From: Gammaproteobacteria bacterium
GTDB taxonomy: Bacteria > Pseudomonadota > Gammaproteobacteria > Chromatiales > Chromatiaceae
Length of the DNA stretch: 45,322 nt
Assembly: GCA_030148485.1 (NCBI GenBank)
Contig: JASBTJ010000061.1
Span: 1-45,322, forward strand
Direction: 5' to 3'
Part shown: positions 2,672 to 35,639 of the stretch, one piece after another
Layout: each line of letters opens with the position of its first letter
Position numbering within the stretch: the first letter of the stretch is position 1
Position numbers and translations under genes: made by a program
The notes under the pieces: model-generated
Told to the model about the DNA's origin: nothing
What the model saw: the letters and a program-made list of their open reading frames with translations, nothing else
The model's database searches: none

Positions 2672-3115
2672 ATGGACAGCCCGTTGCCATCAGCGCACCC
2701 CAACATCATTGCACCGCCGCCGTTGCTCTTCGCGGGGTTCGCCCTGACAGGATTCGGTCTGCACTGGATGCTGCCACTCCGGATACCGAGTGAATTCGGC
2801 TGGCGGCTCGCTATCGGGTTGTTTTTCCTGACTGGCGGCTCGGCCCTCGCCCGTTGGGCGTTTGCACATTTTCGTCGCCACGCGACCTCAGCCAGCCCGC
2901 GGGACAGCGCGGTCGCGTTGATCCAGGACAGGCCGTTCGCGTTGTCGCGCAATCCGGTGTACGTTGCCATGTCGCTGCTCTATCTTGGCGTGGCGTTCGG
3001 GCTGGGGTCCGGCTGGCTGCTGCTGCTGCCCGTGCTGTTGGTGGCGATGCACGTCGGCGTGGTGCGACCGGAAGAGCGGTACCTGACGACCCGGTTCGGC
3101 GATGCTTATGCGTAG
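2672..3115 (+). CDS. Isoprenylcysteine carboxylmethyltransferase-family membrane protein, frame continues past a TAG to 3145
   Basis: The 147 residues before the first stop contain several hydrophobic helices and the ICMT/PEMT-like signature (PFALSRNPVYVAMSLLYLG, then EERYLTTRFGDAYA). This family of integral membrane methyltransferases uses S-adenosylmethionine; the bacterial substrates are mostly unknown. After TAG 3113-3115 the same frame encodes YRNRVRPWL and then TGA (3143-3145), which is exactly the usual family ending (Y-x-x-R-V-R-x-W-L). The TAG therefore truncates a conserved tail by nine residues plus the stop position. The truncated protein may still fold. ATG 2672 lacks a strong ribosome site, so the exact start is uncertain. 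Confidence 0.75.
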   Translation: MDSPLPSAHPNIIAPPPLLFAGFALTGFGLHWMLPLRIPSEFGWRLAIGLFFLTGGSALARWAFAHFRRHATSASPRDSAVALIQDRPFALSRNPVYVAMSLLYLGVAFGLGSGWLLLLPVLLVAMHVGVVRPEERYLTTRFGDAYA

Positions 3116-3244
3116 TACCGCAACCGGGTACGGCCTTGGCTGTGACGCTCAGCGCGCGCACGGTCCGCCACCGGGGAATCGACGGGTGATGCCGCACGGG
3201 CACAGCGACAGGTCCATCGCCAACACTAGCGGAGTCATCGTCCG

Positions 3245-3757
3245 ATGAGCACCCCCGCCATGCTGCACTTCTTTTGCGGGAAGATGGCGGCCGGAAAATC
3301 CACCCTCGCCCGTCAGCTCGCGGCCAGACACGACGCGCTGTTGCTCAGCGAGGACGACTGGCTGGGCGGTCTGTTCCCCGGCCAGATCAATGCGGTTGCC
3401 GACTACGCCAAGCACTCAAAGCAGCTGCGGTCGATACTGGGGCCGCACGTACAGCAGTTGCTGGCACGGGGAACCGAGGTGGTGCTGGATTTTCCGGGCA
3501 ATACCCCGGCGCAGCGCGTTTGGTTTCGGTCCATCTTTGAGCCGGTTAACGCCCCGCACACCCTGCATTTTATCGACCTGACGGACGCTCAGTGCCTACG
3601 CCAATTACGCCAGCGCCATACCGGGCAAGCCGCCGGGTCCGCCTTCACGTCGGCGGCGGCATTTGCATCCGTAACCCGGTATTTTTCACCGCCAGCGGGC
3701 GACGAGGATTTCAACGTGGTCAGGTACAACGACACCCAGGATCGCATACCGAACTGA
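3245..3757 (+). CDS. P-loop AAA-type ATP-binding protein, predicted kinase
   Basis: The 170-residue protein begins with a Walker A motif (GKMAAGKST, residues 12-20). An LSEDDWLGGLFPG segment follows, as in small zeta-toxin/gluconate-kinase-like P-loop kinases, then a Walker B-like strand (VVLDFPG) and an arginine-rich lid (LRQLRQRHTG). It probably phosphorylates a small molecule or nucleotide, but the substrate is unknown. No antitoxin-like partner is adjacent, so a toxin-antitoxin role is not supported. It follows the methyltransferase-like gene by about 100 bases and could be co-transcribed with it. Bases 3758-4033 downstream hold nothing I can assign. Confidence 0.75.
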   Translation: MSTPAMLHFFCGKMAAGKSTLARQLAARHDALLLSEDDWLGGLFPGQINAVADYAKHSKQLRSILGPHVQQLLARGTEVVLDFPGNTPAQRVWFRSIFEPVNAPHTLHFIDLTDAQCLRQLRQRHTGQAAGSAFTSAAAFASVTRYFSPPAGDEDFNVVRYNDTQDRIPN

Positions 3758-4033
3758 CTTTTCATTGTGCACACCACCGGTTGCGCAAAACGCCGGCACG
3801 GCGCTCGATCAGCGTGACACCCGCCACCAGCGGAACCCGATCTGCGCCCCGAAGAGGCCGCGGCCTGATCGTCAGCGAACGCGACCGCAGATCTTTCCGG
3901 CTGACAGCTGATCGACCACAAGCGGTCAAAGAATCGCGACGTCCTTGATATAAACACTAGACTCGACTGCTGGTCTGGTTCGATACGCGGGCGCAAAGCC
4001 GGCGCAGATCGATTTCACGAGGAGACGCGTGAT

Positions 4034-4420
4034 ATGAACATGCACTATGGCGCCCTGTTATGTGCGGGCACCTTGACCTTGCTATCCACCACCATGGCCG
4101 GTAAACGACTGAGCGGCGATGAGATCCGTACGCTGCTCACCGGCAAGACGGTTCACGGCACCCACCACAAGCGCGGCACCATCGAAACGCATTTCGGTGA
4201 AGACGGCCGTGTGACCAACTGATCCGGCGACGGGACGACACGCGCCGGAAAGTGGTGGGTTGACGGCGATAAACGCTGCATCGCCTGGGATCATAAGGGC
4301 AAGGATTTTTGCCACTAGATCAAGCGCGAAGACGATGGCAGCCACGTGCTGATCCATAGCCGCAAGGGCAAGCGCCTGGTGGAAATGACCACCGTCAGCG
4401 ACGGTAGCCCGGTGAACTGA
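4034..4420 (+). pseudogene. Small secreted protein gene with two in-frame stops (TGA and TAG)
   Basis: From ATG 4034 the frame encodes a signal peptide (hydrophobic core after MNMHYGALLC, cleavage near TTMAGK) and a small domain (LSGDEIRTLLTGKTVHGTH). The frame stays coherent through TGA 4220-4222 and TAG 4316-4318 to a final TGA at 4418-4420. Between and after the stops it reads RAGKWWVDGDKRCIAWDHKG and SHVLIHSRKGKRLVEMT, which look like real protein. Restored, it would be 128 residues and periplasmic. It resembles small bacterial secreted domains with a KWW-x(5-10)-C pattern, whose function I do not know. No frameshift is needed. The first 62 residues alone would lack the conserved W/C part. 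Confidence 0.6.
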
Positions 4421-4557
4421 TCGCTTACACTCCTACCCGCCGGCGAGGCGGTTGGTTGACGTCGCCGAGCGGCGGCACGGGCAAGCAAATCGCCATCCCC
4501 CGCCGCGCGACGGCAGTCAGGCACCGGCCGAGGGGGAGCCCAAGCTCCCTGCCCGGC

Positions 4558-5871
4558 TCAAGTCGCCCAATCCGCAATGGCCGCACTCGCGGCCATCACC
4601 CGACCGCAGTACTTGTTCAGAAAGGCACGGTCGATTCGGCCCTGGTGCGCGGCGGCTTTGAGTGCTTCGCTGCCGTCAAAATCGACATCGGCCAGACGGA
4701 AGCTCAACTCGTCAGCGGGTCGGCCGAAATCGCTCCCCGGCAGGGTGGCAACACCCCGCTCCCGCAACAACCCTTCGCACAACTGCGGGCTGGTGTGGAT
4801 ACCCCGCTCTGCGAGACTGTCTTTTTGCGCGGTGAAATCGGGAAACAGATAGAAGCCGCCCTCCGGCTCCGCCACCTGTATGCCTGCGGCAGCCAGCTGT
4901 TCGACCACGGCCCCACCCAGCGCGCGTAGGATGCGGCGGGAGTGATGCAGATAGGCACCAATCTCCGGCCCACCCTGGTAGGCCCGTACCACGGCATACT
5001 GGATCGGCGCACTGGTGGTGGTAAAGGTCTCGCTGGCGACCACGGCCATGGCCTCCTGCAGCCAACGTAGCGCCGGTGGAAACAGGAAGGTGCCCAACCG
5101 CCAACCACCGGCCCCGGCCCACTTGCTCAGGCCACTGCTGATGATGGTGCCTTCCGGGTAGTGGCGGGCGATGGACCGGTGCTGGCCTTGATGGTACAGC
5201 TCGCCGTAGATCTCGTCGGACAACACGATCACGCCGTAACGTTGCGCCACCGCCGCCAGCGCGGCCAACTGGTCGTCGTCGTAACTGACCCCCAGCGGAT
5301 TGCTGGGGTAGTTGAGGATCAGCAAGCGCGGGCGCGTCGGATCGCCCCGGCACAATGCGTCCAGTTCAGCCGGCTGAAGACGCCAGCCGTGGTCCCGTTG
5401 CGTCGTGATCCAATGTACCTGGCGACCGATGATCGACGCTTGAGGGGTGTAGGACACCCAACTGGGCGCGGGAACGAGCAGGTCGCCGTAGTACACCAGT
5501 TGCAGGATGAACATCAGCTCCTTGGAGCCCGGGCCGATCAACACATCCTCCCCGCCCCCGGCGACGGCGTTGACACGTTGATGATAGCCGGCAACCGCCT
5601 CCCTCAGCGCAGGTAGTCCCTTTACCGGCAGGTAGTCTTTTTGATGGGCGTTGTCCCGCAACGCCTGGACAACCACATCCGGTACCGGGAACGGCGACTG
5701 CCCCAGCCCCAACCGGTAAACCTGTTTGCCGGCTTGCTGCAACCGGGCACTGTGCTCATTGACGGCCAGCGTCGCCGATGGCGCCAGGCTGCGAACATTC
5801 AGATTGAGCTGCGCGTTTGCCGGGGTCCGTTGCGGCGCAAAGCCGAACGGCGACTGCGGAACGGCATTCAT
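4558..5871 (-). CDS. Class I/II pyridoxal-phosphate aminotransferase
   Basis: This 437-residue protein of the aspartate aminotransferase fold has GLGQSPFPVPDVV near the N terminus, the NYPSNPLG substrate loop and LSDEIYGELYH. SSGLSKWAGAGGWRLG carries the lysine expected to bind pyridoxal phosphate, and the arginine in FRLADVDFDG would bind the substrate carboxylate. It transfers an amino group between an amino acid and a 2-oxo acid in the cytosol; the exact substrates are not evident. The frame is open upstream to 5997, but I chose ATG 5871 (MNAVPQS) because an AAGGA lies about eight bases before it. The extra upstream residues are arginine-rich and look non-coding. It is divergent from the efflux transporter gene, with about 277 bases between them. 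Confidence 0.85.
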   Translation of the reverse strand: MNAVPQSPFGFAPQRTPANAQLNLNVRSLAPSATLAVNEHSARLQQAGKQVYRLGLGQSPFPVPDVVVQALRDNAHQKDYLPVKGLPALREAVAGYHQRVNAVAGGGEDVLIGPGSKELMFILQLVYYGDLLVPAPSWVSYTPQASIIGRQVHWITTQRDHGWRLQPAELDALCRGDPTRPRLLILNYPSNPLGVSYDDDQLAALAAVAQRYGVIVLSDEIYGELYHQGQHRSIARHYPEGTIISSGLSKWAGAGGWRLGTFLFPPALRWLQEAMAVVASETFTTTSAPIQYAVVRAYQGGPEIGAYLHHSRRILRALGGAVVEQLAAAGIQVAEPEGGFYLFPDFTAQKDSLAERGIHTSPQLCEGLLRERGVATLPGSDFGRPADELSFRLADVDFDGSEALKAAAHQGRIDRAFLNKYCGRVMAASAAIADWAT

Positions 5872-6086
5872 CACTGTGTCCTTGTCGAGTCCCGCCCGAC
5901 GTCGTGCACCCACTGGTGACTGCGCAAGGAGCGTACCAGGGCACAGCCCCCTTGCCGCACGCCAGATCGTTCGTTCGCGGCGCAAATCGCGATCCATACC
6001 TAGCGGCGCGTACCACTACAGTGCGTACCCACGAACTTTGCCGCCATGTCGCCGGTCTTTATGCAGACAGCTTGCGGGCGGCAGGA

Positions 6087-6115
6087 TTGCCCTGCGCCGT
6101 CGGTATCCGTATTAT
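6087..6115 (+). promoter_or_regulatory. Sigma-70-type promoter for the cation efflux gene
   Basis: TTGCCC (6087-6092) and TATTAT (6110-6115) are separated by 17 bases, close to the TTGACA/TATAAT consensus. Transcription would start near 6122 and leave a leader of under 30 bases before the TTG start at 6149. No operator-like inverted repeat was obvious. Confidence 0.5.
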
Positions 6116-6148
6116 GGCTAGGGGCACGGTTCCGCTGGAGCACTACCG

Positions 6149-7051
6149 TTGGCACACGACCACAGCGCCCACCACGGCAATTACAATCGCGCCTTCGCCA
6201 TCGGCGTAGTGGTGAACCTTGCCTTTGTCGCCATCGAAGCGGGCTATGGCATTGCCGCCGACTCGCTGGCGTTGATCGCGGATGCCGGCCACAACCTGAG
6301 CGATGTGGTCGGGCTGCTGTTGGCGTGGGGAGCAAGCGCGCTGGCCGGCAAGGCCGCGTCGGACAAACGGACCTACGGTTTTCGCAAGGCAACGGTGATG
6401 GCCTCGTTGGGTAGTGCGATCATGCTGTTGGTGGCCTTAGGCGGTATCGCCTGGGAAGCCATCGGTCGATTCAACGACCCGCAACCGGTGGCCGGCATGA
6501 CGGTGATCGTAGTCGCGGCCATCGGCGTGGTCATCAATACCGCCACGGCGCTGTTGTTCGTGTCCGGGCAAAAACACGACCTGAACCTGCGCGGCGCCTT
6601 TCTGCACATGGCCGCGGACGCAGCGGTTTCGGTAGGCGTGGTGATCGCGGGGCTGTTCATTCTGTTCAAGAACTGGTTATGGATCGACCCCGCCATCAGT
6701 CTGGTCATTGCCGGCGTCATCTTCGTCGGCACCTGGGGACTGTTGCGCGATTCCATGAACTACGCCATGGACGCCGTGCCGGCGAAGATCGATCTGACCG
6801 GTGTGCGCCAATATCTGGAGCATTTCGATCACGTCGACCACATCCACGACCTGCACATCTGGCCCTTGAGCACCACGGAGATCGCGCTAACGGTGCACTT
6901 GGTGGTCAACAAGCAGGTGCTGGACAACGACTTTCTCAACGAGCTGCAAACACATCTGCATGACACCTTCGACATCGAGCATGCGACCATTCAGATTGAA
7001 AGTGCGTTGGCCGAGAACCATTGTCGACTGGACTGCCATCCCGCCGGTTGA
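6149..7051 (+). CDS. Cation diffusion facilitator, CzcD-like zinc/divalent metal efflux transporter
   Basis: This 300-residue inner-membrane protein has six predicted helices and the paired HxxxD metal-site motifs of the family: H48-N-L-S-D52 in helix 2 and HMAAD in helix 5. A histidine-rich N terminus (MAHDHSAHHG) and a cytosolic C-terminal domain (HVDHIHDLHIWPLST) complete the pattern. Such proteins expel Zn2+, Co2+ or Cd2+ in exchange for protons. TTG 6149 is taken as the start because GGAG lies eight bases upstream and the His-rich N terminus is typical. A CHPAG-type ending with cysteines and histidines may add a metal ligand. It stands alone under its own promoter. Confidence 0.9.
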   Translation: MAHDHSAHHGNYNRAFAIGVVVNLAFVAIEAGYGIAADSLALIADAGHNLSDVVGLLLAWGASALAGKAASDKRTYGFRKATVMASLGSAIMLLVALGGIAWEAIGRFNDPQPVAGMTVIVVAAIGVVINTATALLFVSGQKHDLNLRGAFLHMAADAAVSVGVVIAGLFILFKNWLWIDPAISLVIAGVIFVGTWGLLRDSMNYAMDAVPAKIDLTGVRQYLEHFDHVDHIHDLHIWPLSTTEIALTVHLVVNKQVLDNDFLNELQTHLHDTFDIEHATIQIESALAENHCRLDCHPAG

Positions 7052-7205
7052 GCGGCGCCTGAGGACTGCAGGTCCGCAACCATTTATTAAACCTTTTACC
7101 CTGTACACCGTGTGGGTTAAAGTGCGGCCAATATAACGAATCCAGGCCGCCCAGGATGGTCATGCTCGGGTTCCGGTGCGATTCCGATAATACGAAGACC
7201 CGACC

Positions 7206-8525
7206 ATGCCCGCTACCCAGAGCGCTTTGGCGCAGGCCCGACAGATTCTGGCAGCAGCCGATCAGAAGCTGGACAAGCTGCGCGCCGTCAAACCCTATCT
7301 GATCGATCTGTCGCTAAGGGAGAACCCCGTCGGCGCCCGCGTGGGGCAAACGCTGGCGGAAAAGTTGGCGATCCTGCCTCGGCTGCGTGAGTTCGGTTTT
7401 CAGAACATCCTGCTCGGCACGCTCGATTACGGATTGCCCGACGAGTTGGAAGTGGATGACGATTTCATGGCGCATCTACGCGACCACGACGTCGACATGA
7501 CCGGCTGTTTCGCCTTTACCGCCATCGGCATCGCCCAGCCAGACGGCCGTTTCGTCGCCGACCCGTCGCAGCTGAAGTTGCAACGCTACGGCGTACCGAA
7601 CACGCTCCATGAGATCTACCTGACCCACGAGGGAATGGGCGATCAATACGACCGCGAGACCTTGAAGCGCAGCCTGCCCGCCAGTATCCGCTGGCTGCAC
7701 GAAAACGTTCGCGGCGACAACGGCAACCCGCCACGCATCCTGATCAATGTCGTCGATGGCTGCGACGCCTTCGCCGAAGATCCGGACTGGGTGTGCGAGA
7801 TCCTCGCCCTGTTGGCCGACCAACCCATCGAGGGGGTCAGCATCGAGGACGACCGCGGGGTGTTTCTCCCGTTTCAGGTGGGTGCCTATGTGGCGGTGAT
7901 GCGTCAACTGCCGCCGCCGCCACTGAAGATCCTGGTCCATATGCATGCCGGCGGTGGGTTCGAGAATGCCTCGGTCATGGAGGCCTTGCTCAACGGTGCC
8001 GATGGTGTCTGGGGCGGCCTGCCGAAGCGCGCCGCGATCATCGGGCACGCCTCCTTGGGCGAACTGATCGCCAATCTGGTGCGCCTGGGCAACCCGCATA
8101 TGCAGGACTACCGGTTGGACCAGTTGCTGCCGCTGGCCACCGGTCTGCAGGTGGAAGACGAAGAACAAGCGGTGCCGGACGACCTGCCGATACTCGGGCA
8201 CAACGCCTATCGTTTGCCGTTGAGTTTCTTCCGCCAGCAGGCGGGACGGTTCATGGACCTGGTGCCGGAAGCCATCGGCGGTAGTTACGGCTTCCGTATC
8301 TGCCCGGTGGTCAGCGATCAGGCAGTGATCGCCGGACGGTTGGCCGAGGTCACCGGTCGGCCGGTGTCCAGCTTCCCGGACGCTGTGCTGACCCAGATGA
8401 TCCGCTTGATGCGCCGGGAGCTGCGTGCCGGCACCCGTATTGTGTACGACCAACCCCAGGAACTATTGGACCTGTACCAGCGTGCAGGCGGCGGCCAAGC
8501 GAAACCCGAGACAGGCGCTCCGTAG
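7206..8525 (+). CDS. DRE-TIM metallolyase-like protein (HMG-CoA lyase / isopropylmalate synthase superfamily)
   Basis: This 439-residue protein has a TIM-barrel core of the HMGL-like type. DLSLRENPVG lies near the N terminus, VSIEDDRGV mid-barrel and HMHAGGG (His245 and His247) at the usual metal-binding HxH, followed by NGADGVWGGLPKRAAIIGH. Family enzymes cleave or form C-C bonds in 2-oxo acid or acyl-CoA chemistry with a divalent metal. The usual N-terminal D-x-x-x-RDG triplet reads D-L-S-L-REN here, a clear departure, so known substrates cannot be assumed. ATG 7206 has only a weak ribosome site (GAAGA). The gene ends in TAG, and the diguanylate cyclase gene follows after 68 bases, possibly in the same transcript. 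Confidence 0.65.
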   Translation: MPATQSALAQARQILAAADQKLDKLRAVKPYLIDLSLRENPVGARVGQTLAEKLAILPRLREFGFQNILLGTLDYGLPDELEVDDDFMAHLRDHDVDMTGCFAFTAIGIAQPDGRFVADPSQLKLQRYGVPNTLHEIYLTHEGMGDQYDRETLKRSLPASIRWLHENVRGDNGNPPRILINVVDGCDAFAEDPDWVCEILALLADQPIEGVSIEDDRGVFLPFQVGAYVAVMRQLPPPPLKILVHMHAGGGFENASVMEALLNGADGVWGGLPKRAAIIGHASLGELIANLVRLGNPHMQDYRLDQLLPLATGLQVEDEEQAVPDDLPILGHNAYRLPLSFFRQQAGRFMDLVPEAIGGSYGFRICPVVSDQAVIAGRLAEVTGRPVSSFPDAVLTQMIRLMRRELRAGTRIVYDQPQELLDLYQRAGGGQAKPETGAP

Positions 8526-8593
8526 CGCGCGTCGCCGACAACGACGTGCCTTACGAAGCCACCCCCCCTCCCATAACGGCGTAAAGGATCACC

Positions 8594-9535
8594 ATGAGCG
8601 AGCAAGCGAACGAGCTGGACATCGACAGCACGGTCTACAAGACGCTGCTGGAATCCACCAAGGCCATCCCCTGGCAGATCGACTGGGAAACCAAGCGCTT
8701 CAGCTATATCGGCCCGCAGATCGCGACCCTGCTGGGCTGGAGCCAGGACAGCTGGCAGAGCGTCGAGGACTGGGTCGCCCGCATGCACCCCGAGGATCGC
8801 GACAAGGTATTCAACTTCTGTGTCAGCCAATCCTTGGCAGGGGTCGATCATGAAGCAGACTATCGGGCTTTGACGGCCGACGGCGGCTATGTCTGGATCC
8901 GCGATGTGGTCCACGTGATGCGGGAAAACGACGAAGTGGTCTCACTGGTCGGTTTCATGTTCGACATCAGCGAACGCAAACAACGCGAGGAGGAACTGCT
9001 GCGCCTGCAAAAGGAACTCCAGGAGCTGTCCTTCAAGGACGGCCTGACCGGCGTACCGAACCGACGCATGTTCGACACCTTCATGGACATGGAATGGAGT
9101 CAGGCCCGACGCAACCGGCAACCACTGTCGTTGGTGATGATCGATATCGACTACTTCAAGCAGTACAACGATCATTACGGGCATATTCAGGGCGACGACT
9201 GCTTGAAACAGGTCGCCGAATTGCTGAGCGGCGCGGCCACCCGCTCGCGTGATTTCTTTGCCCGTTTCGGCGGCGAGGAGTTCGCCCTGGTATTACCGGA
9301 GACCGACAGGCTGGCCGCGAACAAGATCGCCCAACGCTGCCGCGACATCATCTTCAAGGCGCAGATTCCCCATGCCAAGTCCGACATCAGCACGGTACTG
9401 ACCATCAGTCAGGGCGTCGGCACCATCGTCCCCGATCAGGGCGACGACCAACGGGCATTCATCGAGCTGGTGGACAACCTGCTATACAGCGCCAAGCAGA
9501 ATGGGCGCAACCGGATCGGCACCCAGAGTTCGTAA
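8594..9535 (+). CDS. PAS-GGDEF diguanylate cyclase
   Basis: The 313 residues comprise a PAS domain (about 20-127, ending in FMFDISERKQREEE, a PAS/PAC-type coiled linker) and a GGDEF domain (about 145-310). The active-site loop is intact (GGEEF, 226-230), as is the DxD-type metal site (MIDIDYFK). An inhibitory I-site RxxD (R217-D220) precedes the active site by five residues. It should make cyclic di-GMP from two GTP and be product-inhibited. There is no membrane segment, so it is cytosolic. Given the flagellar and polysaccharide genes elsewhere in the window, a role in the motile/sessile switch is a reasonable inference. AAAGGATC precedes ATG 8594. Confidence 0.9.
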   Translation: MSEQANELDIDSTVYKTLLESTKAIPWQIDWETKRFSYIGPQIATLLGWSQDSWQSVEDWVARMHPEDRDKVFNFCVSQSLAGVDHEADYRALTADGGYVWIRDVVHVMRENDEVVSLVGFMFDISERKQREEELLRLQKELQELSFKDGLTGVPNRRMFDTFMDMEWSQARRNRQPLSLVMIDIDYFKQYNDHYGHIQGDDCLKQVAELLSGAATRSRDFFARFGGEEFALVLPETDRLAANKIAQRCRDIIFKAQIPHAKSDISTVLTISQGVGTIVPDQGDDQRAFIELVDNLLYSAKQNGRNRIGTQSS

Positions 9536-9570
9536 CATCATCGTGACCTGCGTAACCCGGGGTGAAGGAT

Positions 9571-10170
9571 ATGCCGCTTGCCAAGCTTTTAACCGTTACC
9601 GGTTTGCTGCTCCTGGTCACCGGTTGCGGCACCCGACCGACTTCCCTGGTCGATTCGAAGGGGGACGCAGGCAGCGCCCGACTGACCAGTGAATGTGATG
9701 CGAGGTGCAAAGCCGCCCTGGGCAAGCAGCTCGATATTGCTGAGATAAAAAGCCTGAACCCGTATGCACGTTCCTTCGCGTACATCGGTTCGCCCATTGT
9801 TCATCGCGTCAACGGACTCCCCAGCGACACCGGGATGTACGGGTATGGCGGCGCGTACAACAGCGCCTGGGACGGCGCATTCGAGATCGACATACCCGTC
9901 GGCCGGACCTCGCTCCTGGTCCGGCTGGACAATCATTACAATCCGAACAAACCCCGGCGCATGCTGCGCTTCGAGGCGCTCAAAGCACATACGTATTTCG
10001 TCGGCGAGTACTATCGGGAAGACACCATGAGCCACAGCTACCGCTGGCTTCCCTTCGTCTTCGACAAGACGTCAGCCCGGGTGGTCTCCCCGACCGGGGC
10101 GCCGCGCTGGGAAGGCGGCGACGCGCCGGGGTATCAACACCCGCTGCCGATCCCGGTGATCACCAAGTAG
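9571..10170 (+). CDS. Hypothetical outer- or inner-membrane lipoprotein
   Basis: The N terminus (MPLAKLLTVTGLLLLVTGC) is a lipoprotein signal peptide with lipobox VTGC, lipidated at Cys19. The mature part has two further cysteines (ECDARCKAAL) and an immunoglobulin-like middle section (FEIDIPVGRTSLLVRL, then LRFEALKAHTYFVGEYY) reminiscent of small periplasmic lipoproteins of unknown role. I preferred ATG 9571, with GGTGAAGG just upstream, over GTG 9562. It follows the cyclase gene by 35 bases and converges on ligA, whose stop is only 17 bases away. TAG ends it. Confidence 0.65.
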   Translation: MPLAKLLTVTGLLLLVTGCGTRPTSLVDSKGDAGSARLTSECDARCKAALGKQLDIAEIKSLNPYARSFAYIGSPIVHRVNGLPSDTGMYGYGGAYNSAWDGAFEIDIPVGRTSLLVRLDNHYNPNKPRRMLRFEALKAHTYFVGEYYREDTMSHSYRWLPFVFDKTSARVVSPTGAPRWEGGDAPGYQHPLPIPVITK

Positions 10171-10179
10171 ACCGGACCC

Positions 10180-13692
<3,513 letters not shown>

Positions 13693-13711
13693 CGACTACG
13701 ACTCGCGCCAG

Positions 13712-16700
13712 TCAGCCAGCAGCGGCCAGCTGGGCCGCTTCTTCCACGTCCACCGACACCAGACGCGACACACCCGGCTCGTGCATGGTCACCCCGGACA
13801 ACTGATTGGAGATTTCCATGGTGACCTTGTTGTGGGTGATGAAGATGAACTGCACATGCTCGGACATCTCCTTGACCAATTGCGAAAAACGCCCGACGTT
13901 GGCGTCGTCCAACGGCGCGTCAACCTCGTCAAGCATGCAGAAGGGCGCCGGATTCAAACGGAAGATGGCAAACACCATGGCGACCGCGGTAAGCGCCTTC
14001 TCTCCCCCTGACAGCAGATGGATGGAAGAGTTGCGCTTGCCGGGCGGGCGAGCCATGACCGACACGCCGGTATCCAACAGATCCTCGCCGGTCAGCTCCA
14101 GGTAGGCATGACCGCCGCCGAACAACTTGGGGAACAGCTCTTTCAGGCCGGTGTTGACCTTGTCGAAGGTTTCCTTGAAGCGCGTACGGGTCTCCCGGTC
14201 GATCTTGCGGATCGCCTCCTCCAGGGTTTCCAACGACTCGGTGACATCGGCGAACTGCTTGTCCAGATACTCCATGCGCTCGGACTGTTCCTTGAACTCG
14301 TCGATGGCGGCCAGATTGATGGGACCAAGGCGCTGGATCTTCAATGACAGATCACTGACCCGGGCCTCCCAGTCCGCCAAGCGTGCGTCCTCCGGCAGGC
14401 CTTCCTCGAGTTCGTCCTGCTTGAAGCCGGTCTCGGCCAACTGCTCTTCCAGGGTGTTGGCTCGCACCACGATTTCCTGACGGGACATGCGCGCCTGATC
14501 CAGCTTGGCGCGCTCGTCCTGCACCCGCTGCTCGGTGTGATGGCGGTTCTGTTCCAGTTCGCGCAGCTTGTGGTCAATGGCCTCCAGGCCCTTGCGTGCC
14601 TCGGACAGCTGTCCTTCGATGCTGATGCGCGCCGCCAGTTTTTCCTCCAGCTCCTGCTGTTGCAGGGCCAGCGGTTCGGCCGCATTGGTCAGGTTTTCAC
14701 GCAGCTCGCCCACGCGCAGCTGTAACTGTTCCAGTTGCGAACTGGCGCGGTCCAGACCGGAACGCAACGACTGCTCGGAGGAACGCATGGATTCCACCCG
14801 CAAGGCGATCTCATGGGCCGCGGTACGGGCCTGCTGGGCGCCGTTACGGGCCTCATCGAATTGGCGCCGCAACTGGTCGCGACGGGCAATCAATTGCTCG
14901 CGGCGGCTGCCCAGCTCTTCCATGTCCGCCAACGCCTTGTGCAACTGGCTGCGCGCGGTTTCCATGGCCAGGGCGCCCGTCTCCACCTGCTCACGCAGCT
15001 CGGCGGCGTCGTTCTCCAACGCTTCCAGGCGATGACGCAACTGCTCGGCGCGCGCGCGCTTGCCGGACAACTGGGCGCGGATATCCGCAAGTTGACGATT
15101 GGCGGCGTCCTGGGCGCGCTGTTGTTCGTCACGGCGGTGCTCGGCCTGAGCCAGCGCCTGCTGGCCTTCGGCCAGCTGCGCGGCCAAACCGTCCACCTGT
15201 TCGTCGAGTGCGCCGAGGCGGGCAACCAGATCACGCAGTTCCTGTTCACGCGCGAGCACACCGGCACTGGCATCGGCCGCCTTGTGGTAGCGCAACCACC
15301 CCTTGCCCAGCCAGATGCCTTCCGGCGTGACAACGGACTGACCATCCGCCAGACCATCCCGACGGGCCAGCGCGGACGCGAGATCCGGCGCTGTTTGGAC
15401 CTCACCCAGTAAGCCGTTCAATGCCGCCGGCCCCCGCACCACGGCGGCCAGCGACCCCGGCGCCGGCGCAACGTCGCCGCCCCGTTCGATCAGCCCCAGC
15501 CGCCCCTGCTCCAGTTGGCCGACCGCCGCGCCCAAGGCAGCAAGATCGTCGACGCACAGGGCCTGCAGATGGTGACCCAACACCGCCTCGGCAGCGGTCT
15601 GCCAGGCGCTGTCCACCTCGATGGTTTCGAGCAGGCGTTTGGCGCCACTCAGCCCGCTGGCATCCAGCCATTGGCCGAAGCGGCCGTCACCTTCGCCCAT
15701 GGCATCCTGCTGCAGGGCCTGCAACGACGCCAGCCGCCCCTTGCCGGTTTCCAGTTCGGTGCGGGCCTCGTTCAAGCGCTGTTGGTGCTCGCCGATCCGT
15801 TCGCGCTGGCGGGCAATGGTCTCGGCCACTTCGGCGGTCTGTACCGCCAATTCCTCCACCTGCGCCTGCTGCTCGCCTTCGCGGCGCTCCAGTTCGTTGA
15901 TCTCGGCCTGCAACTGCACGTCCGCCAGCCGCTGGCGTTCTTCCTCCAGTCGCTCCAGACGCCGGCGCAGGTTGCTTTCCTGTTGTTCCAGGCTGTTGAT
16001 GCGGGTGCGCTCCACCTGGGCAACCTGGGCCGGCTCGGTGGCCTGCTCGTTGAAGGCATCCCACTCGCCCTGCCAGTCGTGCATGGCCGATTCGGCATTG
16101 GCGAGAATCTCCGCCGCCGCTTCGACACGCCCCTGGGCCTCTTCCAACTGAGGGCGATCCCGGTCGAGCTGCTCGGCTAGTTCCTCCAGGCGGGTCTGGT
16201 CGGTCTGTTGATGGGACTGGGCCTCGTTGAGGGTGCGCTCAGCCTGCGCCAAGTCCTGCTCCTGCTGGCGGCGGGATTCGCGGGCATACTGGATGGCTTC
16301 CTCCAGTCGCGCGATCTCGGCGCCGGCCGCATAGAACCGGCCTTGCACCGCGTTGAAGGACTCGTTCGCTTCGGCATGGGCACTGCGCTGTCCTTCGATG
16401 CCGGATTCAAGCTCCCGTTGTTTGGCGATGGCCTCCTGCAGCCGGTTCTCCTGTTCTGCAATGACGCGATCACGCTTGGCGACATCCTCACCCATACCAC
16501 GCAGCTTCAGTGCCAGCAATTCGGCACGGGCCTGGCGTTCCTCGGTCTTCAGGCCCTTGTATTTTTCCGCCGTGGCCGCCTGACGCTCCAGATGGCGCAA
16601 CTGCTTGCTGACCTCTTCCCGCAGGTCGTTCAACCGATCCAGGTTTTCACGGGTGTGATTGATACGGCGCTCTGTTTCCTTGCGTCGTTCCTTGTATTTG

Positions 16701-17212
16701 GAGATGCCGGCGGCCTCTTCCAGATGCGCGCGCAGGTCTTCCGGGCGCGCCTCGATCAGACGCGAGATCATGCCCTGCTCGATGATGGCGTAGCTACGCG
16801 GCCCCAGGCCGGTACCCAGGAACAGGTCGGCGATATCCCGACGCCGGCAGCGCACGCCATTCAGATAGTAGTTGGATTGACCGTCCCGTGAGACCTGCCG
16901 CTTGACCGAGATCTACGCGTACTGGGCGTATTGACCGCCGGCGCTGCCGTCGGCGTTGTCAAAGACCAATTCGATACTGGCGGTGCCCACCGGCTTACGA
17001 CTGGACGAGCCGTTGAAGATCACGTCCGCCATGGATTCGCCGCGGAGCATCTTCGCCGAACTTTCGCCCATAACCCAACGAACTGCGTCGATCACGTTGG
17101 ATTTTCCACAGCCGTTAGGGCCCACGATCCCCACCAGATTGCTCGGGAAATGGACCGTCGTGGGGTCGACAAAGGACTTGAAACCGGCGAGTTTGATTTT
17201 ATCCAGGCGCAT
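13712..17212 (-). pseudogene. smc: Chromosome segregation ATPase Smc, interrupted by an in-frame TAG
   Basis: SMC condenses and segregates the chromosome. The full frame spans 1166 residue positions, normal for the family. It has Walker [10 protein letters not shown] (residues 31-39), two long coiled coils around a hinge (near the middle, GQWLDASGLSGAKRLLETI onward), the C-motif LLSGGEKALTAVA and Walker B FCMLDEVDAPLDD. Codon 100 is TAG (16915-16913), between QYAQYA and ISVKRQVSRDGQSN, where homologues have YAEISVKR, so GAG has become TAG. No frameshift is present on either side. Without readthrough the 99-residue front has Walker A only, and the remainder, which could restart near GTG 16855, lacks it. 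Loss of Smc would be surprising with no replacement visible, so artefact or suppression must be considered. Confidence 0.9.
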
Positions 17213-17358
17213 GGGGCGAAAAGATACCGGAAGCCCCTGCCCCCCACAAGCAAAACCGCGTGCGCGCTTTTTCTCAGAAAGACATCGTAATTTGTTGTTT
17301 TTACTTAATTATTAACACCTCCATAAGTGCGGGGTAATAAAGCGACGAAGGTCTCGCT

Positions 17359-17364
17359 TATAAT
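17359..17364 (+). promoter_or_regulatory. -10 element upstream of queF
   Basis: TATAAT matches the -10 consensus exactly and lies 33 bases before the queF start. No convincing -35 hexamer is found 16-18 bases upstream. The region 17290-17350 is unusually AT-rich. No preQ1 riboswitch-like structure was recognised in the short leader. Confidence 0.4.
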
Positions 17365-17397
17365 CCCCGGCCAACCCCGCTTCAGGAGCCCAAAGCG

Positions 17398-19076: not shown

Positions 19077-19077
19077 G

Positions 19078-22035: not shown

Positions 22036-22060
22036 CGAATCGTCTCTCCCTGCGGGCAGC

Positions 22061-23413: not shown

Positions 23414-23461
23414 TCCCCACCTCGTGTTATTCGCGGTTATCCTTACCGATGCCGGGCACGA

Positions 23462-25531: not shown

Positions 25532-25543
25532 GGGCCAGCGCCC

Positions 25544-26935: not shown

Positions 26936-26962
26936 GTTATCGCGCTCTCCTTCGTTGGTACG

Positions 26963-26979
26963 CGGCGCGCGACGCGCCG
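26963..26979. other. GC-rich hairpin in the divergent leader
   Basis: CGGCGCG-CGA-CGCGCCG is a perfect 7-bp stem about 30 bases before the sugar transferase start, inside its untranslated leader. It may affect transcript folding or be an operator; nothing else supports a role. A TATGAT -10-like hexamer at 27113-27118 faces tviB but has no good -35. The rest of 26936-27206 holds nothing I can assign. Confidence 0.3.
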
Positions 26980-27206
26980 TTGTCCGTCGGCCAATGATTG
27001 TTCATATTGCGGCCGACCTTTATATCCTGGTCTGTCACAAAGCGGACGAAGCTTTGCGGCTAAATATATCAGGCGACACGCGTACTGGCTGCCCTTGGGT
27101 AACACATCACGCTATGATGCGCCCACCAAACCCTCGTGGCACCCGGAGTGGTCTCGCGTGCAGGGGGATCGTCGTCTCGGAATGGAACCTAAGGAAAACG
27201 AACCCG

Positions 27207-28484
<1,278 letters not shown>

Positions 28485-28505
28485 CCGAAGAAGGACTCAA
28501 CCAAC

Positions 28506-29513
28506 ATGCGTGTTTTGGTCACCGGCGCCGCCGGCTTTATCGGTTCAGCGCTGTCCCTGCGCCTGCTCGAAAGGGGCGACGAAGTCATCGGCGTCGACTG
28601 CCTGGATCCCTACTACGACGTCAGCCTGAAGGAAAAACGCCTGGAGCGCACCAAGGCGTATGACGGTTTCACCGATCTGCGGCTGCGCATCGAGGACCGC
28701 GAGGGCATGAAGGCGGCCTTCGCCAAGTATCAGCCGCAACGCGTGGTCAACTTGGCGGCACAGGCCGGGGTACGTTACTCCATCGAAAATCCCGCGGCCT
28801 ATGTCGACAGCAACCTGGTGGGATTCGGCAATGTCTTGGAAGGCTGCCGGCACAACGGCGTGGAACACCTGGTCTACGCCTCGTCCAGCTCGGTTTACGG
28901 CGCCAACACCGAGATGCCCTTCTCCATCCACGACAACGTGGACCATCCGCTCAGCCTGTACGCGGCCAGCAAGAAGGCCAACGAGTTGATGGCCCACACC
29001 TACGGCCACCTGTACCGGCTACCCACCACCGGGCTGCGCTTCTTCACCGTGTACGGTCCGTGGGGCCGGCCGGACATGGCGCTATTCCTGTTCGCCAAGG
29101 CGATCTTGGAGGACCGTCCCATCGACGTCTTCAACTACGGCAACCATCGCCGCGACTTCACCTATATCGACGATATCGTCGAAGGGGTGATCCGGGTGCT
29201 GGACAAACCGGCTCAGCCCAACCCCGATTGGAGCGGCGCCAGCCCCGATCCCGGCACCAGCAATGCGCCCTTCCGCATCTACAACATCGGCAACAATTCG
29301 CCGGTGGAACTGATGACCTATATCGGCGCCCTGGAAAAAGCCCTGGGCAAGGAAGCGCGCAAAAACATGCTGCCGTTGCAGCCAGGCGACGTGCCGGACA
29401 CCTACGCCAACGTCGACGATCTGGTGGCGGACATGGGCTACAAGCCGGAGACCCGGGTGGAAGACGGCGTGGCCAATTTCGTCGCCTGGTATCGGGACTT
29501 CTACAAGGTCTGA
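28506..29513 (+). CDS. NAD-dependent UDP-uronate/UDP-sugar 4-epimerase (CapI/LpsL-like)
   Basis: This 335-residue short-chain dehydrogenase fold has the NAD motif GAAGFIG (7-13), a serine-rich ASSSSVYG catalytic segment and the Y152-x3-K156 pair (YAASKKANE). [15 protein letters not shown] and [14 protein letters not shown] are typical of UDP-glucuronate 4-epimerases. It should interconvert the gluco and galacto forms of the acid made by the upstream dehydrogenase. AAGGA precedes ATG 28506. The gene converges on the RpfE-type gene; the 107 bases between them show no strong terminator. Confidence 0.88.
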
Positions 29514-29620
29514 CCCGGCTGGCGGCCAAGGCTGTCAACCCGCCGTGCAGGTCATGGCAGGCTGGATATCGCAGAATGCGATAAGCGAAGTGCGTGCGCT
29601 ATGGGCTGCCCAAGGACGAG

Positions 29621-30589
29621 CTAACCGGTCGGCCCGACCTCTTCCGGCCAGTGTGACAGCAGCGGTCGCGGTCGACGCCACCAGCGCCAACGCGCCCCTG
29701 GGGTCAGCCGATAGGCGCGGCCGTCGCCGGGATACAACACCGTCGGTTCGCGCAGCCCTGCCAGTCGCGCCTGTACCCCGGCCACGGCCTGCAACCAGCG
29801 CTGCGGATCGCCGTCCCACACCGCCCGTTCACACGCACCCAGCCAGCACAGGGTATCGCCGGTTGCGCCGAGCGCTTGCTGCGCCAGGCCGCGTAGCCAG
29901 GCCGGTGCTGCGCCGGACAAGGCCGGCCCCTTGCCGACCGTTGGGGCCACACCACCGCCATGAAACCACAGCCCACTCACTGTTGGCCGGCCGGCCGCCG
30001 CCCGGGTCTCGTTCAACGGCAGTCCATGGAACAGCATCTGGATCTCGTTCAGGCGGGCTCGCCAGTCGGTGGCATCCGGGCCCTGCGGCAGAAACAGGTC
30101 CACGTTGCGCCCGATGACCTGTCCCAGCGGTGACGTACGGACTGCCGGCGGGTCTGCAAGGTGGAGATACAAATGCCCGGCCGGGCTGATCTGGAGCTGC
30201 CAGCCATCGTCCCGGAAATGGTCATTGAACGCCGCGACGAGCGTGTCGGTCTCGGCCGGCGTGAGGTCCGCAGCCGCGCTGTCGAACAGCAACAGCCGGT
30301 CCTGATCCGGCGCCAGATGCACGGGGGTGGCGTGATACACCGCGCCCGACACTGCGGTGTCGCTCTCCGCCTGCCAGGCTAGCGCTGCCGTGGGCAGCTC
30401 GTCACCGATATCGGACACAGCGAACAAGTGGCACACCAAGGCCTGGGCATCGACAGCCACCGATTGGACGTCACCGCGAGCAAGCCAACGCTCGATGACC
30501 GGAAACCGATGCCCGGCGGCATGCTCCGCCAACCGCGGCATGGGCCCGAGCAGGCCGGGCACGATCAGGTGCAGCACCTGATCGGCCAT
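29621..30589 (-). CDS. RpfE-type conserved protein (phosphoglycerate-mutase-like, function uncertain)
   Basis: The 322-residue protein matches a family often labelled regulatory protein RpfE type or, loosely, phosphoglycerate mutase. The markers are LHLIVPGLLGP at the start, ARLNEIQMLFHGLPLNETRAA, then GLWFHGGG. No phosphatase metal-site set is clear, so an enzymatic role is not claimed. It is cytosolic. It follows hom by 29 bases and is probably in the alaC-hom transcript. In other gammaproteobacteria a similar gene sits near recJ, which is not seen here. It ends in a natural-looking TAG. Confidence 0.65.
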   Translation of the reverse strand: MADQVLHLIVPGLLGPMPRLAEHAAGHRFPVIERWLARGDVQSVAVDAQALVCHLFAVSDIGDELPTAALAWQAESDTAVSGAVYHATPVHLAPDQDRLLLFDSAAADLTPAETDTLVAAFNDHFRDDGWQLQISPAGHLYLHLADPPAVRTSPLGQVIGRNVDLFLPQGPDATDWRARLNEIQMLFHGLPLNETRAAAGRPTVSGLWFHGGGVAPTVGKGPALSGAAPAWLRGLAQQALGATGDTLCWLGACERAVWDGDPQRWLQAVAGVQARLAGLREPTVLYPGDGRAYRLTPGARWRWWRRPRPLLSHWPEEVGPTG

Positions 30590-30618
30590 ATCAGCTCGCC
30601 CTCATGGACTGGCCGCGC

Positions 30619-31929
30619 CTAGCCCAGCTGTTCGACACGGATGCGGGTGACCTCGCCATGCACGGCATCCAGCGCGGCGATCTTGGCCAGGGCGTCGTTC
30701 ATTTGCGCCTCGCGCACCTCGTGGGTGAGCAGGATCAACGGCACCTGGGACTCACCCTCGGCGGCCTCCTTCTGCTGCATGGCCTCGATACTGATGCCGG
30801 CATCGCCGAGGATACCGGTGATCGCGGCGATCACCCCCGGCTTGTCCTGCACCGACAGGCGCAGGTAGTACCCGGTGACCACCTCGTCCATGGGCAGTAC
30901 CGGCAGGTCCGACAGCTCGCCCGGCTGGAAGGCCAGATGCGGCCCCCGATTCTCCGGATCCGTGGTCAGGGTGCGGGTCACGTCGATGATGTCCGCCACC
31001 ACTGCCGACGCGGTGGGCAGTGAACCGGCGCCGGCGCCATAGTACAGGGTCGGGCCGACGGCATCGCCCTGCACCAGCACGGCATTCATCACACCATTGA
31101 CGTTGGCGATCAGGCGCCGTTCCGGAATCAGGGTGGGATGCACGCGCAACTCGATACCCTGATCAGTCTTGCGGGTCACGCCCAGATGCTTGATGCGATA
31201 GCCCAGCGCCTCGGCGTAAGCCACGTCCTGCTGTCCGACACGGGTGATGCCCTCGGTAAAGCATTTGTCGAACTGCAACGGGATACCGAACGCCAGGGAC
31301 GCCAGAATGGTCAGTTTGTGCGCCGCATCGATGCCTTCCACATCGAATGTCGGATCCGCCTCGGCGTAGCCGAGGGCCTGCGCCTCCTTGAGTACATCCG
31401 CGAAATCACGCCCCTTGTCCTTCATCTCGGTGAGGATGAAGTTGCCGGTGCCGTTGATGATGCCGGCGATCCATTCGATGTGATTGGCCGCCAGGCCTTC
31501 CCGCACCGCCTTGATGATGGGAATACCGCCCGCGACGGCGGCTTCGAAGGCCACGGTAACGCCTTTGGCCTGGGCGGCGGCGAAGATCTCGTTGCCGTGC
31601 AGGGCGATCAGCGCCTTGTTGGCGGTGATCACGTGCTTGCCGTTGGCGATGGCCTCCAGCACCAGCTAGCGCGCCGGGGAGTAGCCACCGATGAGTTCCA
31701 CCACAATATCGATGTCCGGATTGCGAACCACATCGAAGGCATCGTTGCAGATAGTGACGTCGTCCAGGCCTTCGAGCTTGCTGGCGTCATACTCTCGGGC
31801 GGCCGCCTGGGTGACCTTGATCTCGCGCCCGGCGCGCCGGGCGATCTCGGTCGCGTTGCGCACAAGTACATTGAGGGTACCGCCGCCGACGGTACCGAGG
31901 CCCAGCAATCCAACCTTGACGGGATTCAA
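30619..31929 (-). pseudogene. hom: Homoserine dehydrogenase, interrupted by an in-frame TAG
   Basis: Hom reduces aspartate semialdehyde to homoserine for threonine and methionine synthesis. The complete frame is 436 positions, the usual size. It has the NAD(P) motif GLLGLGTVGGGT (7-18), the substrate region (GIINGTGNFILTEM, then AEADPTFDVEGIDAAHKL) and a C-terminal ACT domain (YYLRLSVQDKPGVIAAIT). Codon 88 is TAG (31668-31666), between GGYSPAR and LVLEAIANGK, where homologues have ARELVL, so GAG has become TAG. The first fragment holds only the cofactor-binding start; the second lacks it. No indel is present. Auxotrophy would be expected if this is real and not suppressed or duplicated. Confidence 0.92.
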
Positions 31930-31987
31930 CGTTCTACTCTCCTGACGTCGGGCCGACGTCGCGCGCCGGCCGTGAATTCGATGCGAC

Positions 31988-33184
31988 TCAGTCGCCGGCC
32001 TTGAGCAGGCCGTCCTTGCGGAACATGTCGCGGATGCCGCGCACGGCCTGACGGGTGCGATGTTCGTTTTCGATCAGCCCGAAGCGCACATGGGTATCGC
32101 CGTACTCGCCGAACCCAATCCCCGGCGACACCGCCACATGTGCCTCTGCCAGCAGCTTCTTGGAAAATTCCAGCGAGCCCATGTGCCGGTAGGCCTCCGG
32201 GATGGGTGCCCAGACGAACATGGTCGCCTTGGGACGTTCGACATGCCAGCCGATGTTATTGAGCCCGTCGCACAGCACATTACGACGACTCTCGTACATG
32301 CTGCGAATCTCTTCCACACAATCCTGCGGGCCCTCCAGCGCCGCAATAGCCGCCACCTGGATCGGTGTGAAGGTGCCGTAATCTAGATACGACTTGATGC
32401 GGCCGAGCGCTGCCACCAGGGTCTTGTTGCCGACCATGAAACCGACCCGCCAGCCCGGCATGTTGTAGGTCTTGGACAGCGAATAGAACTCCACCGCGAT
32501 ATCCTCGGCGCCGGGCACCTGCAGGATCGACGGCGTCTTGTAGCCATCGAACACGATCTCGGCATAGGCGATATCGTGCACCACCCAGATGTTGTGTTCC
32601 TTGGCAATGGCGACCACCTTTGCCAGGAAATCCACGTCCACGCAGTCGGTGGTGGGATTGCCGGGGAAATTGATCACCAGCATCTTGGGACGGGGCCAGG
32701 AATCGGTGATCGCCTTTTCCAAGGCCTGACAGAAATCCACGTCCGGGGTCATGGGTACGTGGCGCACATCGGCGCCGGCGATGATGAAGCCGTACGGATG
32801 GATCGGATACGCCGGGTTGGGCACCAGCACCGAGTCACCCGGCCCCATGGTCGCCAAGGCCAGGTGCGCCAGGCCCTCCTTGGAGCCGATGGTAACGATC
32901 GCTTGGCTATCGGGATCCAGGTCGACGTCGAATTTGTCCTTGTACCAATTGCAGATGGCGCGACGCAGGCGGGGAATCCCCTTGGACATCGAATAGCGAT
33001 GGGTGTCCTCACGCTGCGCGGCTTCGCACAGCTTGTCCACGATATGTTTGGGCGTCGGTTGGTCCGGATTGCCCATGCCGAAATCGATGATGTCCTCACC
33101 GCGAGCTCGCGCCGCCGCCTTCAATTCGTTCACAATGGCGAACACGTACGGCGGCAAGCGATTGATTCTGCGGAATTCTTCCAT
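31988..33184 (-). CDS. alaC: Alanine-synthesising transaminase AlaC
   Basis: AlaC-type enzymes make alanine from pyruvate using glutamate as donor. The 398 residues show the class I aminotransferase fold: [42 protein letters not shown], the pyridoxal-phosphate lysine in [16 protein letters not shown] and a C-terminal [15 protein letters not shown]. The frame opens at 33220, but ATG 33184 ([15 protein letters not shown]) matches the usual start of the family; GTG further up is possible. alaC directly upstream of hom, 58 bases apart, is a common gammaproteobacterial arrangement. Confidence 0.9.
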
Positions 33185-33340
33185 CTCGGGGGTGGACACG
33201 GGCGACCTCGGGCGGCACAAAGGGGGCGAAAAGTAAGTCGGCTAAAGTACCTGAATCGACTCTAAAAGGTCAATGAAATTAGGTGATTACAGGCCGCATT
33301 CCGGACCGGCGTCGCAGCCGCGACGGGCAGGAGCGAAGAC

Positions 33341-33709
33341 ATGAAAATGGCATTGGACGATATTGACGAACGGTTGGTGATCCGCGGGTATGGACCGGGC
33401 GAGCTGGCCATCGGACGGCAGACGTACACCAGCAGTCTGCTGCTGACCCCGGATGGCGTATTGCCCGACTGGGAACCGAACGCCGTGGCCGACATCACCG
33501 CCCGTCATCTGCTGGCGGTACTCGACCACCGGCCGGAACTGCTGATCCTGGGCACCGGCGAGCGCCAGGACTTCCCGTCCCCGCGGCTGTTCGTGGACCT
33601 GATGGACGCCAGGGTCGGCTACGAGGTGATGGACACGGCCGCCGCATGCCGCACCTACAACATCCTGCTCGGGGAGGGTCGCCGGGTAGTGGCGGCGTTG
33701 TTGCTCTAG
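33341..33709 (+). CDS. Mth938-domain protein (DUF498/DUF598)
   Basis: The 122-residue soluble protein has the family pattern VIRGYGPGELAIGRQTYTSSLLL, ELLILGTGERQDFPSP and a C-terminal DTAAACRTYNILLGEGRRV. Its function is unknown; distant relatives occur with respiratory complex I assembly factors. AGGAG lies about seven bases before ATG 33341. It is a single gene, divergent from alaC and convergent with fliJ. TAG ends it just before repeat copy B. Confidence 0.85.
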   Translation: MKMALDDIDERLVIRGYGPGELAIGRQTYTSSLLLTPDGVLPDWEPNAVADITARHLLAVLDHRPELLILGTGERQDFPSPRLFVDLMDARVGYEVMDTAAACRTYNILLGEGRRVVAALLL

Positions 33710-33835
33710 GAAAGCGCTGAATAAATCCATCCTGGACTTCCCTGCGCACGATGCGCTGTAAAACGGCCACCTGCCGTGACCGATTTTGGCGACACCTCCC
33801 TGCGCCGCGGGACCGCTGAATGTTTCAGCGGTGGC
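33710..33835 (+). repeat. Multi-hairpin dispersed repeat, copy B (shortened)
   Basis: It begins AAAGCGCTGAATAAATCC and has GCGCA-CGA-TGCGC. The third and fourth hairpins are merged into one short arm (ACGGC...GCCGT), followed by GACCGATTTTGG and ACCTCCCTGCGCCG. It ends in a perfect 9-bp stem, ACCGCTGAA-TGT-TTCAGCGGT (33812-33832). It fills the whole gap between the convergent Mth938 gene and fliJ, consistent with a two-way terminator. Confidence 0.85.
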
Positions 33836-34264
33836 CTAATCCGGCTTGCGTTGTGGGCGGTCGTCCTGCTGTGCCTGCTCGCGCTTGTCCGCCGCGCGCC
33901 GCTCATCGGCCTGCATGCGTTCCACCACGTTGTTCATCATCTGGGTACGGGTGTACTTGTCCCGCCAAGTGGCTTGGGCATCCGCGCAGGCCGCCTTTTC
34001 CTGAGCGACCAGTTTCTCCTGCTCGGCTATCGCCGTTTCGAGCTTGTCCAGGAAAAGTTGGAACTCGCGAATCCGCGAAACCGGCATGCCCTGCTGGTTG
34101 GCCTGCTGATACTTGGCCAGATATTCAGTGTGATAGTCGCGCAGGTTCGCCAACTGCTGTTCCGCCTGCTGCTTGCGCTTGAGTCGCTCGCCCAGCGCCG
34201 TCGCCGCCTGCCGCTCGCGATTATCGGCCACCCGCTGAACGGGCTTGAAACGATCAGATGACAC
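33836..34264 (-). CDS. fliJ: Flagellar export chaperone-like protein FliJ
   Basis: FliJ is the stalk-like coiled coil that links the FliI ATPase ring to the export gate and handles chaperones. The 142 residues are almost all charged helix ([39 protein letters not shown]), with the usual FQLFLDKL middle. It overlaps the end of fliI by 11 bases. It is the last gene of the fliE-fliJ run here; fliK does not follow, because repeat copy B and a convergent gene come next. TAG ends it. Confidence 0.88.
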
Positions 34265-35639
34265 CCGGCTCCCCTGGCGCGGTCACCGGCATCTGTTGGG
34301 GGAACAGGTTCATCAGATCGTCCAGGCTGTTGTCCAGGTCATGACGGGTATCCATGGTCTGCCGCAGGAAATCCTGCAGTGCCGGCATCATCATGATGGC
34401 ACGATCGATCTGCTCGTTGGAGCCGGCCTCATAGGCGCCGACACTGATCAGGTCGCGGTTCTGCATGTACACACTGTACAGCTGTTTGAATTCCCGCGCG
34501 GCCGCTTGATGATCGCGGCTGGTGATGTCGTTCATGGCCCGGCTCACCGATGCCTCGATGTCGATGGCCGGATACTGGCCCGACTCGGCGATGCGGCGTG
34601 ACAGCACCACGTGACCATCGAGAATGGCCCGCGCCGCGTCGGCGATGGGGTCCTGCTGATCGTCGCCTTCGGTCAGTACCGTGTAGAACGCGGTGATCGA
34701 TCCACCGCCCTTGTCGCCGTTGCCCGCCCGCTCCACCAGTTGCGGCAGTTTCGCAAACACCGACGGCGGATAGCCCTTGGTGGCCGGCGGCTCGTTGATG
34801 GCCAGGCCAATCTCGCGCTGCGCCTGGGCAAACCGGGTCAGCTAGTCCATCAGCAGCAGAACGTTCTTGCCCTGGTCACGAAAATGCTCCGCGATACTGG
34901 TGCACAACATGGCGCCGTGCATGCGTCGCAAGGGTGGCTGGTCGGCGGGCACCGCCACCACGACGGCGCGGGCCATCCCGGCATCGCCGAGGATGTTGTC
35001 CACGAACTCCTTCACTTCCCGCCCCCGCTCACCGATCAGGCCCACCACCACCACGTCGGCGCTGGTGTACTTGGTCATCATGCCGAGCAGCACGGATTTA
35101 CCGACGCCCGAGCCGGCGAACAGTCCCAGGCGTTGCCCCCGCCCCACCGATAGCAGGCTGTTGATCGCCCGGATGCCGACGTCCAGCGGCTCGCGGATCG
35201 GACTACGGGCCAGGGGGTTGATGGATTCGCCGGTCAATGGCCGACGATCGGTGGAGTGAATGGGCCCCTTGCCATCAAGGGGCTTGCCCGCGCCATCGAC
35301 CACCCGTCCGAGCAGCTCGTCACCGACCACCGCCTCGGACACACGCCCCTGCGGCGCCACCCGAGCATCGGGCTCCAGCCCGCGGATGTCGCCCGTCGGC
35401 ATCAGGTACAGGCTTTCGCCGGCAAAGCCGACCACTTCGGCCTCGATCCGGTCGCCACCGGGGCTGATCACGTCGCAGCGTCCACCGATGGCGGCGCGAC
35501 AGCCGACGGCTTCCAGGGTCAATCCCACCATGCGGGTCAGTTTGCCTTCCACCACCAGGCCACGGGAGTCGCCCACCGAGCGCGCCATGCGGGCGATACG
35601 ATCACACCAAATCGCCTTACGATCCGGGTCCGGGATCAC
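34254..35639 (-). pseudogene. fliI: Flagellum-specific ATPase FliI, interrupted by an in-frame TAG
   Basis: FliI energises flagellar protein export. The frame is 461 positions, full length, with Walker A AGSGVGKS (175-182), GLIGERGREVKEFV and Walker B VLLLMD. TAG (34844-34842, codon 266) then stands where all homologues have Ser in [15 protein letters not shown], so TCG has become TAG. The frame resumes at once with [14 protein letters not shown] and continues through [16 protein letters not shown] and the C-terminal domain. GTG 35639 overlaps the fliH stop as GTGA. Without readthrough the enzyme loses half its catalytic domain and export should fail, although all neighbouring flagellar genes are intact. 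Confidence 0.92.

Follow-up and report, generated by a model that had tools for sequence, protein, structure and literature searches.

In-frame stop codons, mostly TAG, in conserved genes of a draft gammaproteobacterial genome: consensus errors as the favoured explanation, with a partly unexplained TAG excess

Artefacts of 8-oxoG in sequencing libraries are G:C-to-T:A substitutions without indels, and they are usually rare per read. The same substitution spectrum characterizes mutM/mutY mutator strains. In-frame TAG inside conserved genes is found where UAG is reassigned or suppressed, as in code 15 phages and in pyrrolysine systems (see PMC9523058). According to the introduction of a 2021 screen of 250,000 genomes, all of the bacterial stop codon changes then known involve UGA (PMC8629427); its authors expect pseudogene stops mainly from transitions. 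Among the literature matches listed, none reports a case like the one described below.

We analysed a stretch of 45,322 nucleotides (the window), which is contig 57 of a gammaproteobacterial assembly of 3.20 Mb in 97 contigs (91.6% complete, contamination 3.14%). The original prediction held that five genes of the window are interrupted by six in-frame stops, and all six were present at the positions and in the frames that it gave (Table 1). The interruption of genes was borne out for three of the five. In smc, hom and fliI, the frame carries one TAG and is open everywhere else, the Pfam domains of the products continue across all three stops, and each product is matched from end to end, stop included, by an NCBIfam equivalog or subfamily model with a score above cut-off. 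The remaining two cases were weak. TAG 3113 stands at residue 148 in a PEMT-family protein, beyond the matched domain (44-144), and the next stop follows 10 codons on. The small ORF that holds both TGA 4220 and TAG 4316 cannot be classed as a conserved gene because it matched no Pfam family and a protein search gave no homologue at E 1e-5 (0 of 16 candidates).

Table 1. Interrupted frames of the window and the stop codons inside the three firm cases.
Feature	Positions	Strand	Evidence
smc, chromosome segregation ATPase, single TAG	13712..17212	-	SMC_N across the stop; TIGR02168 end to end
TAG inside smc	16913..16915	-	genus mate G001 has a sense codon
hom, homoserine dehydrogenase, single TAG	30619..31926	-	matches in 32 relatives, all without a stop
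TAG inside hom	31666..31668	-	column is E in 120/120 listed homologues
fliI, flagellar export ATPase, single TAG	34254..35639	-	TIGR03496 over cut-off across the stop
TAG inside fliI	34842..34844	-	genus mate G001 has a sense codon
PEMT-family methyltransferase, TAG at 3113-3115	2672..3142	+	weak case
Small ORF, TGA 4220 and TAG 4316	4034..4417	+	no detectable homologue; weak case

A glutamate had been proposed as the ancestral residue in both hom and smc. For hom the homologues bear this out uniformly, while for smc they do so only in part: E is present in the five closest of 119 listed homologues and in 73 of 76 alignments from named genomes, but the commonest residue among the 119 is Q (73), followed by E (14), T (14) and S (11). 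Neither protein showed a marked excess of odd residues, which counts against consensus errors in these genes. Residue 328 of hom departs, by a T-to-G-type change, from a residue that is invariant in the 120 listed homologues, a misfit that counts in favour of such errors.

Among the best 120 of 8000 scored proteins, the nearest was 92% identical for hom and 87% identical for smc (the window's own fragment left out). Among these listed hom and smc proteins there was neither one from a second assembly of the species nor a second smc or hom copy from it. The named relatives are Sedimenticolaceae MAGs, Chromatiales MAGs and Thiosocius.

To count in-frame stops beyond the window, we fitted an HMM gene model to a sample of 1,651,231 bases of the 3.20 Mb; a plain codon log-odds scan had given too many antisense false positives. 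The model found 1526 genes and 49 candidate internal stops (22 TAG, 20 TGA, 7 TAA). Seventeen of these (15 TAG, 1 TAA, 1 TGA) were accepted on the strength of domain or family models and matches in relatives, and 29 were dropped because, as judged by eye, they marked a gene end followed by another gene in the same frame or lay antisense. Three with no domain across the stop were held back: TAG L141:743, TAG L194:12261 and TGA L205:2376, the last of which may interrupt a porin-like gene. A first homology scan, in which antisense ORFs served as queries, was set aside; it had returned 214 apparently good stops along with four pairs resembling frameshifts. When repeated it returned 16 (8 TGA, 7 TAG, 1 TAA), from which smc, fliI, uvrB, rimO and ccmF were kept and the other eleven dropped by eye as antisense. 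The rimO and ccmF stops, which the HMM had read as gene ends, were thus added from homology.

The result is 19 in-frame stops accepted inside conserved proteins in 1.65 of 3.20 Mb: 16 TAG, 1 TAA and 2 TGA. TAG interrupts smc, hom, fliI, ilvC, an amino-acid permease gene, two RND pump genes, uvrB, rpoH, cas9, rimO, a 2-oxoacid dehydrogenase E2 gene, dapD, bamA, prfB (RF2) and an MbnH-like peroxidase gene; TAA interrupts slmA, and TGA an EAL-domain gene and what we take to be ccmF, where 18 alignments support the stop. Each of the 19 genes has exactly one stop. The RF2 model TIGR00020 runs across the TAG of prfB with 504.6 bits (cut-off 370), and a model likewise confirms rimO across its stop. 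In the two RND pump genes, the piece after each stop takes up the model where the piece before it leaves off. The peroxidase scored below the MbnH cut-off. The cas9 gene, at L143:15510-18689 (TIGR01865, 616 bits), is of type II.

Several of the interrupted genes, RF2, BamA and DapD among them, are essential in E. coli, so stops that are real and unread would hardly be viable. The stops in these three genes therefore imply either that the sequence is wrong or that the cell reads TAG.

When the same HMM model was applied to 753,005 bases of three relatives (200 kb of G004, 153 kb of G013 and 400 kb of G001), no stop was accepted, as against about 8 expected at the rate of HMM-found stops in this genome; the eight candidates (3, 1 and 4, respectively) were all judged by eye to be gene junctions or antisense. 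For each of prfB, bamA, dapD and uvrB, the copies from 16 genomes were compared, this genome among them, and only the copy from here had an internal TAG or TAA. The RF2 genes of five relatives have one in-frame TGA each, presumably the known RF2 frameshift site. Among the named genomes, one smc copy out of 80 has an internal TAG, that of the gammaproteobacterial MAG isolate Site_C30 (L081:10001-13513); the next codon there is CTG, a pattern shared with several of the present sites. Such events therefore also occur elsewhere.

At 12 of the 19 sites the lost residue could be read from relatives (E 7, S 3, Q 1, W 1), with support ranging from 120 homologues for hom down to one for rimO, and with two of three relatives agreeing for bamA; at the RF2 site one homologue has A instead of Q. 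The other seven sites, among them rpoH, for which one close chain was insufficient, stand outside the spectrum count. Ten of the 12 require G:C-to-T:A; the other two are transitions, which are not of the oxidation type. The proposed lean towards G:C-to-T:A thus holds across the genome sample with two exceptions. The claim that indels are absent also held, as frameshifts were found in none of 424 query-locus pairs; the five flagged cases (one plus the four above) were adjacent genes or antisense matches.

We lean towards the reading that these in-frame stops are errors of the assembled consensus, each a substitution of one base, and not codons read by the living cell. G-to-T and C-to-A calls would have entered the consensus through oxidised-guanine-type damage to the DNA, in the sample or in the library, or through low coverage; the stop-making errors in conserved genes would then be those that show, among a larger number of errors overall. 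Consensus errors fit best with the spectrum, with the interruption of core genes and with the absence of frameshifts. The stops are substitution-only, are scattered over many contigs and fall in genes with intact counterparts in relatives. The scarcity of TAA and TGA is poorly accounted for and stays partly unexplained. The original prediction had left a mutator, an artefact and suppression side by side; the artefact is the best remaining of the three, although alone it does not predict the TAG excess.

This excess keeps recent suppression in play as a candidate. As the bias was suggested by the window, only the 16 stops outside it count as a test. Thirteen of these are TAG; the share expected from codon supply is 45% for G:C-to-T:A changes and about 52% when transitions are added (P = 0.003 and 0.016, respectively, for a stop list curated partly by eye). 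If the stops are consensus errors, the codon supply of a 63% GC genome would account for some of the excess, and sequence context or chance for the rest. The codon 3' of the internal TAG is CTG in 5 of the 15 HMM-accepted sites against a background of 7.5%, a comparison made post hoc. The observed/expected ratio of CTAG was 0.49 here (first 990 kb of the sample) and 0.28, 0.11 and 0.27 in G004, G013 and G001; errors were rejected as a source of this weaker CTAG depletion because their estimated number is too small.

An alternative is recent natural amber suppression, in which a suppressor tRNA missing from the assembly reads TAG, so that TAG nonsense mutations are tolerated while those to TAA and TGA are purged. 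It would accommodate both the interruption of core genes and the predominance of TAG, which makes up 16 of all 19 stops and 13 of the 16 beyond the window. Among 32 tRNA hits none had a CUA anticodon, and the two pattern hits for such a tRNA were normal Arg(TCT) and Glu(TTC) tRNAs; however, the Trp and Cys tRNAs are absent as well from this 91.6% complete assembly. The tRNA set is therefore incomplete, and a CUA tRNA may sit in an assembly gap. The other decoding components speak against suppression: prfA (RF1) is intact as judged by model score (553 bits, cut-off 423, no stop), and the best match to PylS reached 30 bits against a cut-off of 178. At the 10 TAG sites of 16 that were resolved, no one residue is common to all: six lost E, three S and one Q. 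Transversion dominates, and CAG, the commonest one-step source, gave only one site.

Terminator use points the same way. TAG had also been proposed to be a genuine terminator, and in the 1.65 Mb sample it ends 215 of 1469 genes (15%), next to 1013 TGA and 241 TAA, a share comparable to that in G001 (46 of 365). The median distance to a back-up stop is 27 codons after TAG and 28 after TGA terminators, so TAG terminators in the sample are neither avoided nor backed up more closely than TGA. We regard amber suppression as unlikely on these data. Its fuller form, in which a recent natural suppressor lets dozens of core genes, that of RF2 included, tolerate TAG as a sense codon while TAG also goes on terminating genes normally, is quite unlikely.

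Another possibility, also quite improbable, is that the stops are real nonsense alleles, arising either from a G:C-to-T:A mutator or in a mixed or polyploid population with intact copies, where the consensus caught the broken ones. The predominance of G:C-to-T:A, the stops without frameshifts and the contamination estimate are all consistent with this. The mutator version is not favoured by the repair genes, as mutY (380 bits, cut-off 286.5) and mutM (297.4 bits, cut-off 203.3) both exceed curated cut-offs in stop-free frames; as to the population version, the listed proteins contained no second smc or hom copy from the species. In either version, the TAG excess is left unexplained. Taken together, the intact RF1, MutM and MutY, the lack of a CUA tRNA or PylS among the hits, and ordinary termination at TAG leave both a mutator and an established recoding unsupported. 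Ordinary gene decay could cover the weak sites (3113 near its gene end and the two stops in an ORF without homologue) but is highly improbable overall given the absence of frameshifts, the single stop in each of the 19 genes and the core functions affected.

Returning to consensus errors, we asked whether the sites fall in particular contigs, and the evidence is mixed. Contigs of at least 60 kb hold 1 of the 19 sites where about 4.4 are expected (P 0.046), while the site contigs do not differ from background in median length (P 0.50) or the sites in distance from contig ends (P 0.38). Amino-acid-changing differences from relatives gave no clear excess of G:C-to-T:A over the reverse (77 and 72) in what is a low-power test.

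If the stops are artefacts, they show how a draft genome can mimic TAG recoding: its core genes carry stops, TAG for the most part, frameshifts are lacking, and there is no closely related intact copy to set beside it. If suppression were true, UAG would be ambiguous in this bacterial genome; its code would be at the very start of becoming ambiguous, and the conversion of a terminator into a sense codon would be open to direct study.

The case resembles several known systems and matches none fully. With UAG-reassigned or suppressed codes it shares in-frame TAG inside conserved genes; unlike in those systems, RF1 is intact, TAG is a normal terminator, neither a CUA tRNA nor PylS was detected and no single residue belongs to the TAG sites. 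It also recalls the false calls of stop reassignment from pseudogenes or contamination treated in PMC8629427, which likewise show recoding-like in-frame stops and no suppressor tRNA, although the stops here arise mostly from transversions and lie in core genes. The G:C-to-T:A spectrum is that of mutM/mutY mutator strains, yet both genes are intact. Finally, 8-oxoG library artefacts do not predict the TAG excess, and errors of that type would here have reached the consensus; with them the present stops share the G:C-to-T:A substitutions, the freedom from indels and the scatter over genes.
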